Origin: Candidatus Saccharimonadota bacterium
Lineage (GTDB): Bacteria; Patescibacteriota; Saccharimonadia; Saccharimonadales; Saccharimonadaceae
Assembly (NCBI GenBank): GCA_009781895.1
Contig: WQUV01000001.1
Coordinates: 1 to 64,000 of the forward strand
Direction: 5' to 3'
Length of the DNA: 64,000 nt
Numbering within the stretch: position 1 is the first letter of the stretch; each line of letters opens with the position of its first letter. Shown piece after piece: positions 49,371 to 56,907 of the stretch. Both the position numbers and the translations under genes were made by a program. The notes beneath the pieces are model-generated. The model made no database searches and had not been told where the DNA came from. It was given only the letters and a program-made list of their open reading frames with translations.

Positions 49371-50516
49371 TTAATAAATAAAATGGAAAGTCGGAGTCCT
49401 GCCAGCCGCTCGGTCTCGTGTGCCATCTGCCAAGTCCATTGGTAGAGTACGGAAAGTAACTCGGTTCCAAGCACCAGCAAAGTTCATTTCACTCACCACA
49501 ATCCTATCCGCATAGACTCGCTCGACAATCGCCACGTGCCCCCAGCGTCCGCCATAGTTGTGCATAATCGCGCCAACTGCTGGCTGTGTGCCTGTCGCAA
49601 AGCCAGCGGCTTGCGCACGTCGCAACCATGTTGCCGCATTACCCCAGCCACTCATCACTGGCAGCCCCAGCTCTCGTCGTCGATTGTAAGCATAGTATGT
49701 ACAGTGACCACGCGCATAACCACCACCTCGTCCTGCCGTAATACCTGGCGTGAACACGTTCTGAGTTGGCGGCCTAAAGCCTGGTCGCATATTTTCTGGC
49801 AGGATGCCATTCGGGATGAAGATCCTTTCTTCAACCGCCACCTCACGATTGTCCAGCTCGTTATAAGCAATAATCTCTGCCGCATTCGCTCTAAAACGCT
49901 CCGCCACCGCAACGATCGTATCCCCAGCCGCCCAAGCATAGATCACACCATCAATCGCTGGCAACAAGACGTCTTGACCCGCCGATACCTGCGCATTAGC
50001 CGTCAGATTATTTGCCCAGCGGAAAGTCTGCTGTGTAATGCCGCGATCCGCCGACAATGATGCCACCGTTTCACCTTCGAGTACGCGGTGCACATCGACA
50101 CCTCGCGACGCCACAATAATCGTAATCGGTCGATCCAATATACCGCCCGTCGCGAACAAAGCCGCCAGTGACTCCGCCGCTTCCGCCGCGTTCCCCATAG
50201 AAGCCAGTCTCGCCGACTGCGCCGACTGCGCCACTACTTTCGTTTCCAGAACATCAATGAAACTCACATTAAAACTCGTGCCGTCTGCTCCAAACCAGTA
50301 TTGTGCCGACCGGTCTTGGGCTTGCTGACCGCGTGACCCCACCACCAGTAACGCGCCAATCGCCACTATCGCAAAGCTATATTTCAGGAACAGCCGCCAC
50401 ATCTTACCTCTCTTTGTCCGAGGATTCAGAATCGCCTTCCGCTTCTTCTCTACTTTTTCAACCAAGCCGACCTTATCCATCGGATCTTGCGAGTTTTTGC
50501 TTACCAGTTTTGACAT
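49371..50516 (-). CDS. LysM-CHAP cell-wall hydrolase
   Basis: A 381-aa enzyme. After a basic cytoplasmic start and one span (about residues 46-63) come two LysM-like repeats (HRVLEGETVASLSADRGITQ, YAWAAGDTIVAVAERFRANA) and a C-terminal CHAP domain with the cysteine in GHCTYYAYNRR and histidine in WGHVAIVERVY. It likely cleaves peptide bonds in peptidoglycan. Its ATG overlaps mltG by 16 nt; the two form a wall-remodelling pair. Confidence 0.9.
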   Translation of the reverse strand: MSKLVSKNSQDPMDKVGLVEKVEKKRKAILNPRTKRGKMWRLFLKYSFAIVAIGALLVVGSRGQQAQDRSAQYWFGADGTSFNVSFIDVLETKVVAQSAQSARLASMGNAAEAAESLAALFATGGILDRPITIIVASRGVDVHRVLEGETVASLSADRGITQQTFRWANNLTANAQVSAGQDVLLPAIDGVIYAWAAGDTIVAVAERFRANAAEIIAYNELDNREVAVEERIFIPNGILPENMRPGFRPPTQNVFTPGITAGRGGGYARGHCTYYAYNRRRELGLPVMSGWGNAATWLRRAQAAGFATGTQPAVGAIMHNYGGRWGHVAIVERVYADRIVVSEMNFAGAWNRVTFRTLPMDLADGTRDRAAGRTPTFHFIY

Positions 50517-51912: not shown

Positions 51913-53640
51913 CTAGTCGTCTGCCCTAATATTAATTTCGATCCTCGACTGATCGCGCGGCAATCGCCGCACCCAGAATGGTGTCAAATTAATACTTACC
52001 CGCTGTACGCCTGGAAATCCTGACACCTCTCTTTGCGCATCGCCAACCGCCATCTGGACAATCGCCGCTCGCACTTCATCCTCTGGGATCTCATCACCTA
52101 CTCGCGCAATCGTCTTCATGCTCGCTGTCATCTCGCGCACCTGGCCAGGGGTCGGTACACAGTCCTCAGCATCTGGCTCGCAGGTCGTACCACCAGTCTG
52201 CTGTGTTATCTCAATTCGCTCCAGGAATAATCGCCCATCTGTAAAGCTACCGATATCATATACTGTCTGCTCGCCTGCTGTCTGCTCCGCTAGCTGCATC
52301 GCAAACCGCTCCATATCTGTACGCGACGTGGTCATAATCCGAAAAGTCTGCGTCCGTCGCACCGTCGCCCTGCCACCATTACCGACCGGCTCGCCCACTC
52401 GAGGCGTCACTTCGACCGCACCACTCTCGTGTCTGAACGTCAAGCTAAACGCATAACGATCATCCTCTAGTGAAGCAATTAGTCGCGATCGACCCTCTTC
52501 TACGCTCGTACCATCCATCTGCGCCAACGCGTTTCGAACATCTTCTTCTGACACAATACGGATAATTTGTCTAGTGCCGCCCGAAATACCGTTCGAAGTC
52601 ACTCGAGTCTGATAGCTCTCTCGATCAGTCGACAATATCATAGACTGTCCACTCGCCAAGTTGAACTCGTCGCCAATCTCAGCCGCCGTCACCACCACAG
52701 TAGTCGTACCCCAGTTGTTTTCGTTACCACAAGGCGCACCCGGTAATGTCACTGCCGCACCCAAGCGATACCGACGACCGTTCGCTTCAAAGAAGTTATC
52801 TGTTGTCAACTGCGAAGCTGGGCCACAATGACGAATTGTGATCTGTCCACTCGCCCTGGTGCCCTCTTCGCGCTCACCCGTCGCCTCAAATTCCTCAACC
52901 TGTTCCGCTTCTAGATTTCGCTCCTGCAAGGCAAATAGCCCACCTGGCACATCATTGTTGTTCAACTGGAACCGCACATCACGCCGCACATCGATATTAT
53001 CCATTTGGGTCGTGATGTTCACCACAGCCTGAGGTCGCACCGCAATCACCATCACCGCTACGCCAATAGCCATCGCTCCAACTCCAAACGCTCCAATAAT
53101 CAACGCTTTCTGCCAGACTTTGTCTACTTTCGACGTAAGTGCGTTAAACTTTCGCTTTTTATTAGCCTGGTCGGCTTCAGATGCGATCCCGTCCGTGTCT
53201 TTATCTTTAGACGTGATCTCCTCGCCTGATTCCATATCTATCTCTTTAGCTGGAGATTTTGGCAAGATATCATCCTGACCGTCACCGTCCAAGTCACCCG
53301 CAATCGTCAACGGCTCACCCGATCTCAGCTCTTCTACCACTATCTGCCCCTCAGCGACACTCACCTCAGGAATTGTTGGCTTAGTTTCCAGATTCGGCGC
53401 TAGCGCCACACCAGCTACACCAGCTAAGTTCTTCATCGCTGGATTATCACTGATGACCACAGTCACCTTCCCAGAGTTTTTAGCTGCTTTTTTTAGTAGC
53501 TTCAGATTCATCGCAGAGCGCAACGCCCCTAGATTCTTCGGCGCGACCACTGCCACGACCTTTTCTTTTGCCGCCATTACGCGACCGATGATCCCCGCAA
53601 TGTCTTCGTCCACCTCTATATGAATAATTTCTTTGCCCAT
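51913..53640 (-). CDS. Large bitopic envelope protein, unknown function
   Basis: A 575-aa protein. The cytoplasmic N-terminal 180 residues contain an alpha/beta unit (VVAVVAPKNLGALRSAMNLK, KVTVVISDNPAMKNLAGVAG) and two Ca-loop-like acidic repeats (DLDGDGQDD, DKDTDG). A span at about residues 188-209 is followed by a beta-rich outside part (VNITTQMDNIDVRRDVRFQL, GTRASGQITIRHCG). The pattern recalls CPR proteins annotated as baseplate-J-like, but I cannot confirm this. It is first in the operon with ruvX, mltG and the CHAP hydrolase, suggesting a wall or division role. TGGTATAAT ends 8 nt before the ATG. Confidence 0.75.
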   Translation of the reverse strand: MGKEIIHIEVDEDIAGIIGRVMAAKEKVVAVVAPKNLGALRSAMNLKLLKKAAKNSGKVTVVISDNPAMKNLAGVAGVALAPNLETKPTIPEVSVAEGQIVVEELRSGEPLTIAGDLDGDGQDDILPKSPAKEIDMESGEEITSKDKDTDGIASEADQANKKRKFNALTSKVDKVWQKALIIGAFGVGAMAIGVAVMVIAVRPQAVVNITTQMDNIDVRRDVRFQLNNNDVPGGLFALQERNLEAEQVEEFEATGEREEGTRASGQITIRHCGPASQLTTDNFFEANGRRYRLGAAVTLPGAPCGNENNWGTTTVVVTAAEIGDEFNLASGQSMILSTDRESYQTRVTSNGISGGTRQIIRIVSEEDVRNALAQMDGTSVEEGRSRLIASLEDDRYAFSLTFRHESGAVEVTPRVGEPVGNGGRATVRRTQTFRIMTTSRTDMERFAMQLAEQTAGEQTVYDIGSFTDGRLFLERIEITQQTGGTTCEPDAEDCVPTPGQVREMTASMKTIARVGDEIPEDEVRAAIVQMAVGDAQREVSGFPGVQRVSINLTPFWVRRLPRDQSRIEINIRADD

Positions 53641-53816
53641 TTACATCCATTATACCATATCTCTACCAGCATCCTTGCTTATACACACGATTTCCACAGG
53701 GCTATACCACATTTTTACATATTTTGCACAACAATATCTTGATTTTGCAACTTGACAATCTACAGAGGTAGCGACGTGAAATATGCCAGAAATTAACATA
53801 AAAGGTATCAAAAGTA
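53641..53816. other. AT-rich intergenic stretch
   Basis: No ORF, RNA fold or repeat that I can support lies between the back-to-back promoters. It contains only scattered TTTTGCA runs. Confidence 0.5.
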
Positions 53817-53845
53817 TTGACTTTTAGCTTATGGTATGCTATAAT
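53817..53845 (+). promoter_or_regulatory. Strong promoter of the 53991 gene
   Basis: TTGACT (53817-53822), 17-nt spacer ending TGC, TATAAT (53840-53845). Confidence 0.88.
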
Positions 53846-53851
53846 GCTTAT

Positions 53852-53990
53852 AAGGTCGTCCGCGGACACTGCCTAACAAGGCTAAAAGTCGCGGATCACC
53901 GCGAACATTAGCATTTGTGAAGCATGTTATACACGGCCAAGCGCAATCAAAGCCTGCCTCGGGCAGAGCACTCAAAAGGAGGTTTTCATT
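53852..53990 (+). promoter_or_regulatory. Structured leader with a motif shared with the 55607 leader
   Basis: A 140-nt leader. It contains the palindrome GTCCGCGGAC, hairpin GCCT/AGGC and hairpin CGCGG/CCGCG followed by AACATTAGCATTTGTGAAG. The last part matches the leader at 55608-55715 (CGCGGA/TCCGCG then AACCTTAACTTGTGAAG). The ribosome site is AAAAGGAGG. Confidence 0.55.
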
Positions 53991-54491
53991 ATGATGAGAA
54001 CTGTAAAAAAGAGCTTAGCCGTGCTCGGAACGGCAATGTTTGCGTTTATCGCAATGATAGCATTCAACCCTATGACGGCACTCGCCTCTGGCGGGTTAGT
54101 TGGTGGTACAGAAACCACCACAACCGAAACCACCACCGTAGTAGCCAGTACGGCATGGCCCTGGTTCTCCTGGGTACCGTTGCTAGTATTGGGGTTCGTA
54201 CTAATCGCCCTCGCCATAATTCTTTTCCACGCAAGTGGAAAGAAAAAGGAAAGGGAAAAAGACGCAGCGGCCGAAGCCCGCATGATGCAGTTTGGCAACA
54301 ATGTAGCAAAGATTATCGACCCAACATATGAGGTTGATAACTCGGGGCACATGTTCCAAAAAGGAGCGGTGCATCGCCAAGTAAACCCTAACGGTACCAT
54401 CACCTTCGGCGCGCCAAGCAACGTTGCTATGGCGCCCGTAGCTACACCATCAACTGGCCCTGGCAGAACCTACTCTGTTACAATGCACTAA
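53991..54491 (+). CDS. Bitopic membrane protein with the C-terminal tag GRTYSVTMH
   Basis: A 166-aa protein. An N-terminal signal sequence (cleavage near TALASGG) is followed by a short Thr-rich stretch (GGTETTTTETTTVVAS), a membrane span (WVPLLVLGFVLIALAIILF) and a basic then polar cytoplasmic tail (ASGKKKEREKDAAAEARMMQ) ending GRTYSVTMH. The next gene ends with the same nine residues although the proteins are otherwise unrelated. Strong promoter and AAAAGGAGG suggest good expression. No family recognised. Confidence 0.75.
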   Translation: MMRTVKKSLAVLGTAMFAFIAMIAFNPMTALASGGLVGGTETTTTETTTVVASTAWPWFSWVPLLVLGFVLIALAIILFHASGKKKEREKDAAAEARMMQFGNNVAKIIDPTYEVDNSGHMFQKGAVHRQVNPNGTITFGAPSNVAMAPVATPSTGPGRTYSVTMH

Positions 54492-54510
54492 ACACTTCAC
54501 AAGCAAAACC

Positions 54511-54543
54511 AAAAACCCCCAAGGCTTCAGCCGAGGGGGTTTG
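54511..54543 (+). terminator. Terminator of the 53991 gene
   Basis: Stem AAACCCCC/GGGGGTTT with a 14-nt loop. Confidence 0.88.
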
Positions 54544-54569
54544 ACCTGTCTCGAAAAGTCATAATCACC

Positions 54570-54598
54570 TTGCAAAATGTACTGATCTATGATATAAT
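54570..54598 (+). promoter_or_regulatory. Promoter of the 54689 gene
   Basis: TTGCAA (54570-54575), 17 nt, TATAAT (54593-54598). The leader of about 85 nt carries a closing stem AAGGTT/AACCTT and an inner GCGC-bounded hairpin. Confidence 0.8.
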
Positions 54599-54688
54599 AC
54601 AAGTATAAGGTTCGCAAACCGCCATAGCGCTGGTCTGCGCAGCCGTGGAATTTAACCTTGCGAATTAATTCGAAATGGAGGTATAAAG

Positions 54689-55066
54689 ATGAGATTTATT
54701 CTATCTGCAATCGGCTCACTGCTCCTCATAGCACTCGTCATCATAGTTATCGTCCTCTTCTTCCCGCTAATCGTCTGGACGTTCGCCCTAACGCTTGGGT
54801 TCATGCTGGCGTGGCTAACTATAACACTACTTATTGCTACCATAGCCACCGCAGTTGATAGTGGGCGACAGATCTTCAGCGGCAACAGTGGAGCTATCCC
54901 TAGCGTCGCCCCCGCTGTCCACTTCGGCAATGCGCCAGCCGCGCAAATTACTGCCACACCTCAACAGCCAGCTTCCCCTGCGATTCAAGCCACCATCATA
55001 ACAACACCAGCAGCACCTCAAATGGTCTCTGGTGGTGGCAGAACCTACTCTGTTACAATGCACTAG
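54689..55066 (+). CDS. Hairpin membrane protein with the C-terminal tag GRTYSVTMH
   Basis: A 125-aa protein. The first 57 residues form two closely spaced spans (LLLIALVIIVIVLFFPLIVW, LGFMLAWLTITLLIATIATA). A Pro/Ala/Thr-rich tail (APAVHFGNAPAAQITATPQQ) ends GRTYSVTMH. The last 30 nt of the coding region are identical to those of the 53991 gene. With an even number of spans the tail would be cytoplasmic. GGAGG lies 9 nt before the ATG. No family recognised. Confidence 0.75.
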   Translation: MRFILSAIGSLLLIALVIIVIVLFFPLIVWTFALTLGFMLAWLTITLLIATIATAVDSGRQIFSGNSGAIPSVAPAVHFGNAPAAQITATPQQPASPAIQATIITTPAAPQMVSGGGRTYSVTMH

Positions 55067-55104
55067 TCAGATGCTGGCCCTTGTTGTTCAGTTCGCATGT
55101 AGAT

Positions 55105-55137
55105 AGCCCCCGCAACCAATATTTAGGTTCGGGGGCT
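55105..55137. terminator. Terminator between convergent genes
   Basis: Stem AGCCCCCG/CGGGGGCT, extended by AACC/GGTT inside, serves 54689 and probably 55161. Confidence 0.85.
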
Positions 55138-55160
55138 AATACACGTGAAGTCTTTTAGGC

Positions 55161-55607
55161 TTACGCCTTCTTTGTAGAGCCAGCTGCCGTCTTTGCGAAC
55201 ACAAAGAATATCTTGTCGATTGTGCCTGTGCGAAAATTCACACCAGAGACGCTTTCCAGCTTCTTCTTTGTAAATTCGCATACGGGGGCGAACGCGGGCT
55301 TCGCCTTGCAGCCAGTAGGTAGCAATGTTACCTTTTCCCAGTCGCTATCGTCTTCGATTCCGTCCAGGATATTGGCTATAACTGCCGGGATATCGCCTTC
55401 AGCAGCGGCCTTCAGGCGACCTTCTGTGTCTGCAGGGTAGTGTTCCAGGTCTGCACCCTTAACGCGAAGAAGCACAACAACATCAGTGATGTTGTTACGA
55501 TTTCTGGCCAACGCGTCTCCAAAAGCCTCGTTGAAGATAGCTTCTTTCTGGGTGTCATTGAGCAATCCTGCCCCTGTCGCAAATACGCTGTCGAATGTAG
55601 TTGACAT
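55161..55607 (-). CDS. Small soluble protein, unknown function, strongly expressed
   Basis: A 148-aa protein with no signal peptide or span. It has STTFDSVFATGAGLLNDTQK, FNEAFGDALARNRNNITDVV, EKVTLLPTGCKAKPAFAPVC, and a Lys/Thr tail. Codons favour GTT, GCC, CTT and AAG, and the promoter is consensus, suggesting high expression. It has a 107-nt structured leader and AAAAGGAGG 8 nt before the ATG. I recognise no family. Confidence 0.7.
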   Translation of the reverse strand: MSTTFDSVFATGAGLLNDTQKEAIFNEAFGDALARNRNNITDVVVLLRVKGADLEHYPADTEGRLKAAAEGDIPAVIANILDGIEDDSDWEKVTLLPTGCKAKPAFAPVCEFTKKKLESVSGVNFRTGTIDKIFFVFAKTAAGSTKKA

Positions 55608-55715
55608 AGTTATTTCCTCCTTTTATTAGAGGTATTTACACGCAAACTTCACAAGTTAAGGTTCGCGGAGAGATTCCGCGTTTACCTACCTGTGGTAGTT
55701 GCGAAACCTCTTCAC
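55608..55715 (-). promoter_or_regulatory. Structured leader of the 55607 gene
   Basis: On the minus strand: hairpin CTACC/GGTAG, hairpin CGCGGA/TCCGCG, then AACCTTAACTTGTGAAG, which can itself form AACTT/AAGTT. An outer stem AGGTTTCGC/GCGAACCT competes with the second hairpin. It shares a core with the 53852-53990 leader. Confidence 0.55.
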
Positions 55716-55721
55716 ATGTTC

Positions 55722-55750
55722 ATTATATCACACTAGTGGTTAAATGTCAA
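55722..55750 (-). promoter_or_regulatory. Consensus promoter of the 55607 gene
   Basis: On the minus strand TTGACA (55745-55750), 17 nt ending TGA, TATAAT (55722-55727): a full consensus match. Confidence 0.92.
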
Positions 55751-56907
55751 TACTTTTTGATCTTTTTAGCATAAAGCTCAAGCACCTTCTCCCCTATAGG
55801 TGTTTTCGCCAATTTCTCACGAGATACCCAACAGATACCAGCCCCTACAACCAAGACTGCCAGCACTACCGCCAAGGCTACTCTCCACCCCTGTAAGTAT
55901 CCATATTCATCTCTGAAGATCACGTCCATCGCATCTATAATCGTCTCGCCTATATTCGCCACTGCTGTGCCCACAGCACTAGCACTACTGCCACCAGTAC
56001 TACCTGCATCTGGAATGCCAAAATCCACTGAAGTCTGTTCACGGATCCGTCTACACCTATTCGTCTCTGGATTTCGTTCATACCCCTCCGCACACGGCTT
56101 CACCTCTGGCTCAGTCGGAATATTCCGACACCTATTCGTCTCTGGGTTGCGATACCTCCCTGGCCCACAGTCCGCCAGCCCACTCTCTCCACCCGAACTA
56201 TCCCCATCCAACCCATGCTCAACTGGCGGCAACACCTCAGGTATGACCGACCCCAGTTCCGGGACAGTAGAGGCTGTTCCTGTCTCGGAATTAGGATCCG
56301 TCCCACCCGTCGTATTACTGCTCGTCTGAAACTCTGGCGCCGTCCTATTATCTGCACTTGGAGTCGGTGTCGCCGTTACCCATTCGCCATTCACTAAAGC
56401 CCACGATCGCCCGATCCGGCTATTCGGCAGGTCCACCCTATCTACAACTGCCGCGCTCGACCAACCTTCGCCCTCTCCGCCAGTAGTAATATGCGCCTCG
56501 CTTACTCCATATGCCTCCCACACAGCATCACCACCGACCAGCTCAAACACCCTGTCAATAGTCGGAGATTTTGCAAGCTGCAACCCTAAACTCTCCAAGC
56601 TATATGCCTGATATTCGCCTGGTAAAATCACCACATTGCCAAATCTCACCTCTAATACCCTGTTGCTAAATCTCGTCCGCGCCACACACCCCACCAAGCT
56701 CACTGGTCCTGCTGTCGGGTTATGGAATTCCACAAATTGCTCCGACTGATCATCGCGAAAATTCGTAAATATCTCTGTGATCTCTACTTCGCCGCAATTA
56801 CCAACCTCGGTTGCTCTCGCCCACGCTCCTCCCAGCACAACTACCGCCACCACCATTAGTAACACAAATCCCGCCCCAAGACCTCTCTTCACTAGAATAT
56901 TTTTCAT
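55747..56907 (-). CDS. Lamin-tail-domain surface protein with Cys-rich repeats
   Basis: A 386-aa secreted protein. A signal peptide (to about residue 32) is followed by a lamin-tail (LTD) beta-sandwich (VEITEIFTNFRDDQSEQFVE, FHNPTAGPVSLVGC), a Ser/Thr/Gly linker, two repeats (CGPGRYRNPETNRCRNI and CAEGYERNPETNRCRRI), and a C-terminal membrane span (WRVALAVVLAVLVVGAGICW) with a basic tail. The repeats look like small disulfide modules. TGCTAGGAT ends 6 nt before the ATG with TTGCAG 17 nt upstream. Probable surface adhesion or scaffold role. Confidence 0.82.
   Translation of the reverse strand: MKNILVKRGLGAGFVLLMVVAVVVLGGAWARATEVGNCGEVEITEIFTNFRDDQSEQFVEFHNPTAGPVSLVGCVARTRFSNRVLEVRFGNVVILPGEYQAYSLESLGLQLAKSPTIDRVFELVGGDAVWEAYGVSEAHITTGGEGEGWSSAAVVDRVDLPNSRIGRSWALVNGEWVTATPTPSADNRTAPEFQTSSNTTGGTDPNSETGTASTVPELGSVIPEVLPPVEHGLDGDSSGGESGLADCGPGRYRNPETNRCRNIPTEPEVKPCAEGYERNPETNRCRRIREQTSVDFGIPDAGSTGGSSASAVGTAVANIGETIIDAMDVIFRDEYGYLQGWRVALAVVLAVLVVGAGICWVSREKLAKTPIGEKVLELYAKKIKKY

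Follow-up and report, generated by a model that had tools for sequence, protein, structure and literature searches.

Gene 1 and gene 2, two neighboring genes of a Saccharibacteria genome that encode unrelated membrane proteins, end in the same nine codons, and this shared ending is probably a recent, lineage-specific copy made locally from one gene to the other. The window (the whole 64,000-nucleotide stretch of DNA that was analyzed) also contains a third gene, gene 3, next to this pair (Table 1). The identical tract, TGGCAGAACCTACTCTGTTACAATGCACTA (30 nt, 100% identity), is in frame in both genes, where it encodes GRTYSVTMH and the "TA" of the stop codon; the stop codons themselves differ at the last base (TAA in gene 1, TAG in gene 2). 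Its two copies, both read from one MAG assembly, are spaced 575 bp apart. An earlier sequence-only reading of this DNA had described the nine common final codons, as well as a base-for-base match of the last 30 nt that includes two bases of the stop, and both descriptions are borne out by the ORFs and the repeat search. It also held the two proteins to be unrelated. This is the case outside of the tract, as alignments of the flanks (50 or 100 nt upstream, 60 nt downstream) score no better than those of dinucleotide shuffles, and paralogy of genes 1 and 2 was rejected on the same grounds.

Table 1. Positions of the features discussed, numbered within the window.
Feature	Position	Strand	Remarks
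381-aa protein	49371-50516	-	LysM/CHAP-like features (domain guess by eye)
575-aa protein	51913-53640	-	flanks the cassette
Gene 1 promoter	53799-53846	+	AAAAGTATTGAC...TATAATG
Gene 1 leader (start codon included)	53846-53993	+	folding z -3.52; conserved in four species
Gene 1	53991-54491	+	166 aa; ORF, orthologues in three sister species
Tract copy 1	54461-54490	+	3' end of gene 1; repeat search
Probable terminator after gene 1 (GC-rich hairpin)	54513-54542		predicted stem; terminator-like site listed on - strand
Gene 2 leader	54599-54691	+	shorter; folds no better than shuffles (z 0.05)
Gene 2	54689-55066	+	125 aa; ORF, orthologues in three sister species
Tract copy 2	55036-55065	+	3' end of gene 2; repeat search
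Probable terminator between genes 2 and 3 (GC-rich inverted repeat)	55104-55138		repeat and stem prediction
Gene 3	55161-55607	-	148 aa; third member of an apparently genus-specific cassette
Gene 3 leader	55605-55721	-	alternative pairings predicted, arrangement kept in four species; z -3.98
Gene 3 promoter	55721-55768	-	AAAAGTATTGAC...TATAATG

The identity forms a sharp island between unrelated flanks, with synonymous sites included. Ungapped extension widens the tract to 37 nt at 92% identity. Given the peptide, agreement at all nine codons would occur with a probability of ~6e-5 if codons were chosen independently according to local codon usage, and the expected count of a 30-nt match in shuffled sequence is 0. 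The 64-kb window has no second exact repeat of at least 20 nt, direct or inverted, and among its 64 non-overlapping ORFs there is no other pair with more than four consecutive residues in common within the last 15 residues. The agreement at every codon, the sharp boundaries, and the lack of a second repeat of this kind in the window indicate that it is evidently copied DNA, and not the product of convergence.

The ending was then looked for outside the window. Exact and degenerate searches of the genome for (G)RTYSVTMH returned two places only, genes 1 and 2. The same two genes were the only ones recovered when up to three mismatches were permitted in an RTYSVTMH-type ending followed by a stop, or when a loose pattern (G-R-T-x-S-[VIM], three further residues, stop) was applied to the same genome. 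Of 294 further genomes from the family, 0 have the ending, and it was not found in viral contigs. The genome-wide comparison of C-termini consisted of these pattern searches, and the pairwise comparison covered the ORFs of the window. The 381-aa protein encoded at 49371-50516 ends in AGRTPTFHFIY, which bears a faint likeness to GRTYSVTMH and is probably no more than the final strand of the domain.

Three other genomes of the genus (G001, G002, and G003), the nearest relatives compared, keep the gene order 1-2-3 beside the conserved 575-aa gene. Although the pair is thus found at the corresponding site, GRTYSVTMH ends neither gene in any of the three. Genes 1 and 2 end in GRKTVTTTYHE and GITVRIVK in G001, in NNNGGSPWY and ILAQINK in G002, and in TRTIIIRRNNG and INVDNYEE in G003, respectively. 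Within each of these species, similarity between the tail of gene 1 and that of gene 2 is not evident, and neither of the two G001 tails is found again elsewhere in the G001 genome. The pair is found in all of the sisters with other endings, so genes 1 and 2 are ancestral in the genus, and the simplest reading is that the tract came about on the branch that led to this genome.

These data fit a local copy. The sequence-only reading had listed gene conversion among its possibilities, and had preferred a local duplication should no other protein in any related genome carry the ending; wobble-base identity within unrelated flanks, the adjacency of the genes, and absence from the sister orthologues all speak for such ectopic copying, as does the lack of any further copy in the genome or in the 294 family genomes. 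Approximately 30-37 nt would have been copied from the 3' end of one gene onto that of its neighbor, through either ectopic gene conversion of a short tract or template switching during replication, across the 575 bp. The copied tract would have brought an in-frame stop codon with it, so that the recipient gained the last nine residues of the donor. Gene 1 is weakly favored as the donor, because gene 1 of G001 ends in GRKTVTTTYHE, although the resemblance of that tail to the nonapeptide has an uncorrected p of 0.04 and was one of six comparisons made. Gene conversion usually depends on homology that is already there. The present case resembles known short-tract ectopic conversion and template-switch copying in its short, sharply bounded identity (synonymous sites included), in the proximity of the genes, and in its confinement to one lineage, but differs from usual conversion in that genes 1 and 2 have no detectable homology outside of the tract. 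A literature search for short-tract conversion involving bacterial genes without common descent gave nothing directly comparable. The copy may simply be tolerated, both tails being fast-evolving and flexible; alternatively, it may have been kept since the tip is useful. Its position, in frame and exactly at both ends, and its being the sole repeat argue against a copy made purely by chance and hint that selection kept it, as a random copy would rarely land in this way.

The product of gene 1 probably starts with a signal peptide and has a single transmembrane helix, after which come KKKEREKD and a long flexible tail (its structure model is of low confidence). Gene 2 encodes two transmembrane helices and a flexible tail. 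Both tails consist of a low-complexity linker and a short tip, and both are predicted to be cytoplasmic from hydrophobicity and charge. It is conceivable, though on balance unlikely, that the tip is a docking motif, i.e., a strand-like terminal peptide bound by one cytoplasmic partner, perhaps the product of gene 3, and that the copy was retained or selected as such; the sequence-only reading had also listed a docking motif for one partner. The in-frame and exactly terminal placement would suit this proposal, as would the predicted location of the tails, the strand propensity of the tip (higher than that of the preceding linker in most of the four species), and the fact that the cassette genes are always found together. 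On the other hand, orthologues do not conserve the tip: it differs in all three sisters, within which the tails of genes 1 and 2 are not evidently alike. A parallel is the C-terminal pentapeptide NWETF of chemoreceptors, which tethers CheR/CheB from the end of an unstructured linker (PMC7390727). Genes 1 and 2 would share with it the layout of a membrane protein, an unstructured cytoplasmic linker, and a terminal peptide. Unlike NWETF, GRTYSVTMH is not conserved among orthologues, and the two sequences are unrelated, which makes this an analogy and not a case of membership. Docking is compatible with an origin by copying, and a functional copied tip, in which a motif spread by conversion has put two unrelated membrane proteins of the cassette under one cytoplasmic partner, is likewise a tentative prospect at best.

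Three further explanations for the shared ending are much less probable than a local copy. The tract could act as RNA or DNA, e.g., as a 3'-end hairpin or a protein-binding site, and not as a peptide, which would account for the identity at synonymous sites and for the 7-bp hairpin (GGCAGA/UCUGUU) predicted in both copies. This is very unlikely, as the 3' end of gene 1 shows no unusual folding (z -1.24), the terminator contributes to the z of -2.71 at the gene 2 3' end, the tract is not conserved in the sisters, and it is in frame at both genes. Slightly more improbable is that the direct repeats are recombination sites and gene 2 an insertable or deletable unit. The repeats have exactly such a geometry, and a crossover between the two copies would remove gene 2 while the gene 1 protein stayed intact. 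However, gene 2 occupies the same place in four of four species, three of which are free of the repeats, and therefore did not arrive with them; nor did the five cassette and flanking genes scanned give a recombinase match. Endings common to many unrelated proteins in many genomes are known from PEP-CTERM, LPXTG, and ssrA tags. The sequence-only reading had likewise raised a C-terminal sorting or protease signal, and its presence on two unrelated membrane proteins would suit a general sorting, secretion, or protease signal used by many proteins. Unlike those tags, GRTYSVTMH is limited to two genes of one genome, and without a third protein in the genome, the 294 family genomes, or the viral contigs, that suggestion has to be regarded as extremely improbable.

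The three-gene cassette that carries the tract appears to be confined to a single Saccharibacteria genus. Profiles made from the orthologues of genes 2 and 3 in the four species match this genus only among 121 family genomes, and the gene 1 profile matches the genus with two marginal matches besides. The cassette proteins of the sisters are 17-32% identical to the copies in the window, which indicates very fast evolution. No cassette protein has a match above curated cut-offs (where given) in Pfam, NCBIfam, or PHROGs. At a mean pLDDT of 76, the gene 3 product is predicted to be small and soluble, with an alpha/beta fold, for which a search of the PDB gave no match at E <=0.001. The flanking 575-aa protein is conserved in 39 of 41 relatives searched; its single, weak Pfam similarity is to Baseplate_J, below the cut-off (E 0.0012).

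Upstream of these proteins, the leaders of genes 1 and 3 are, by folding and by comparison of the four species, conserved structured RNAs. In the window, these two leaders fold far better than shuffled sequence (z -3.52 and -3.98, respectively), unlike the gene 2 leader (z 0.05). Both have a common core hairpin followed by GRACnTTAR-TTGTGA, and the core of the gene 1 leader is conserved across the four species. Each of the four genomes of the genus has this motif exactly two times, ahead of genes 1 and 3. In 57 other genomes it has three matches, no more than a reversed-pattern control, and these lie in unrelated contexts where the surroundings of the leader are absent. The DNA of gene 3 between the -35 region and the start codon has a mean column identity of 78% across four species, whereas the gene 3 proteins of the sisters are only 22-32% identical to that of the window. 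In all four species, the gene 3 leader has GGAGG as its ribosome-binding site, with ACCTC upstream of it and GAGGT near the 5' end. ACCTC can pair with either GAGGT or GGAGG; the two pairings are mutually exclusive and would leave the ribosome-binding site free or hidden. The gene 3 leader thus looks like the arrangement of a translational riboswitch or a similar control element, and one that is undescribed. Rfam gave only sub-threshold matches in the region, and when both leader types were aligned with MAFFT, RNAalifold failed to retrieve the structure, probably as a result of indels that put the hairpins out of register. Genes 1 and 3 also have strong promoters that are nearly identical to each other (AAAAGTATTGAC...TATAATG) and are kept in the sisters, which suggests high joint expression.

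The named records of three members of the genus are MAGs. Two carry the sample label Th196, under which PMC7024585 lists the humus-feeding termite Termes hospes. The third, Hm464_bin166, was deposited as Nomurabacteria, yet groups in this genus. JAISHF010000004.1 is titled Candidatus Nomurabacteria and groups with Saccharibacteria records of the same genus; its Nomurabacteria label is probably wrong. The genus has members from termite guts.

If the shared ending is only a copy, it offers a clean, small example of unrelated neighboring genes exchanging their ends; if the tip is functional, a docking motif would have been gained in a single step. Of more lasting interest than the tract is the cassette, given its fast-evolving proteins and conserved leaders, that of gene 3 being switch-like. 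These features point to a system that is under tight regulation and includes two membrane proteins, in a lineage of reduced genomes.
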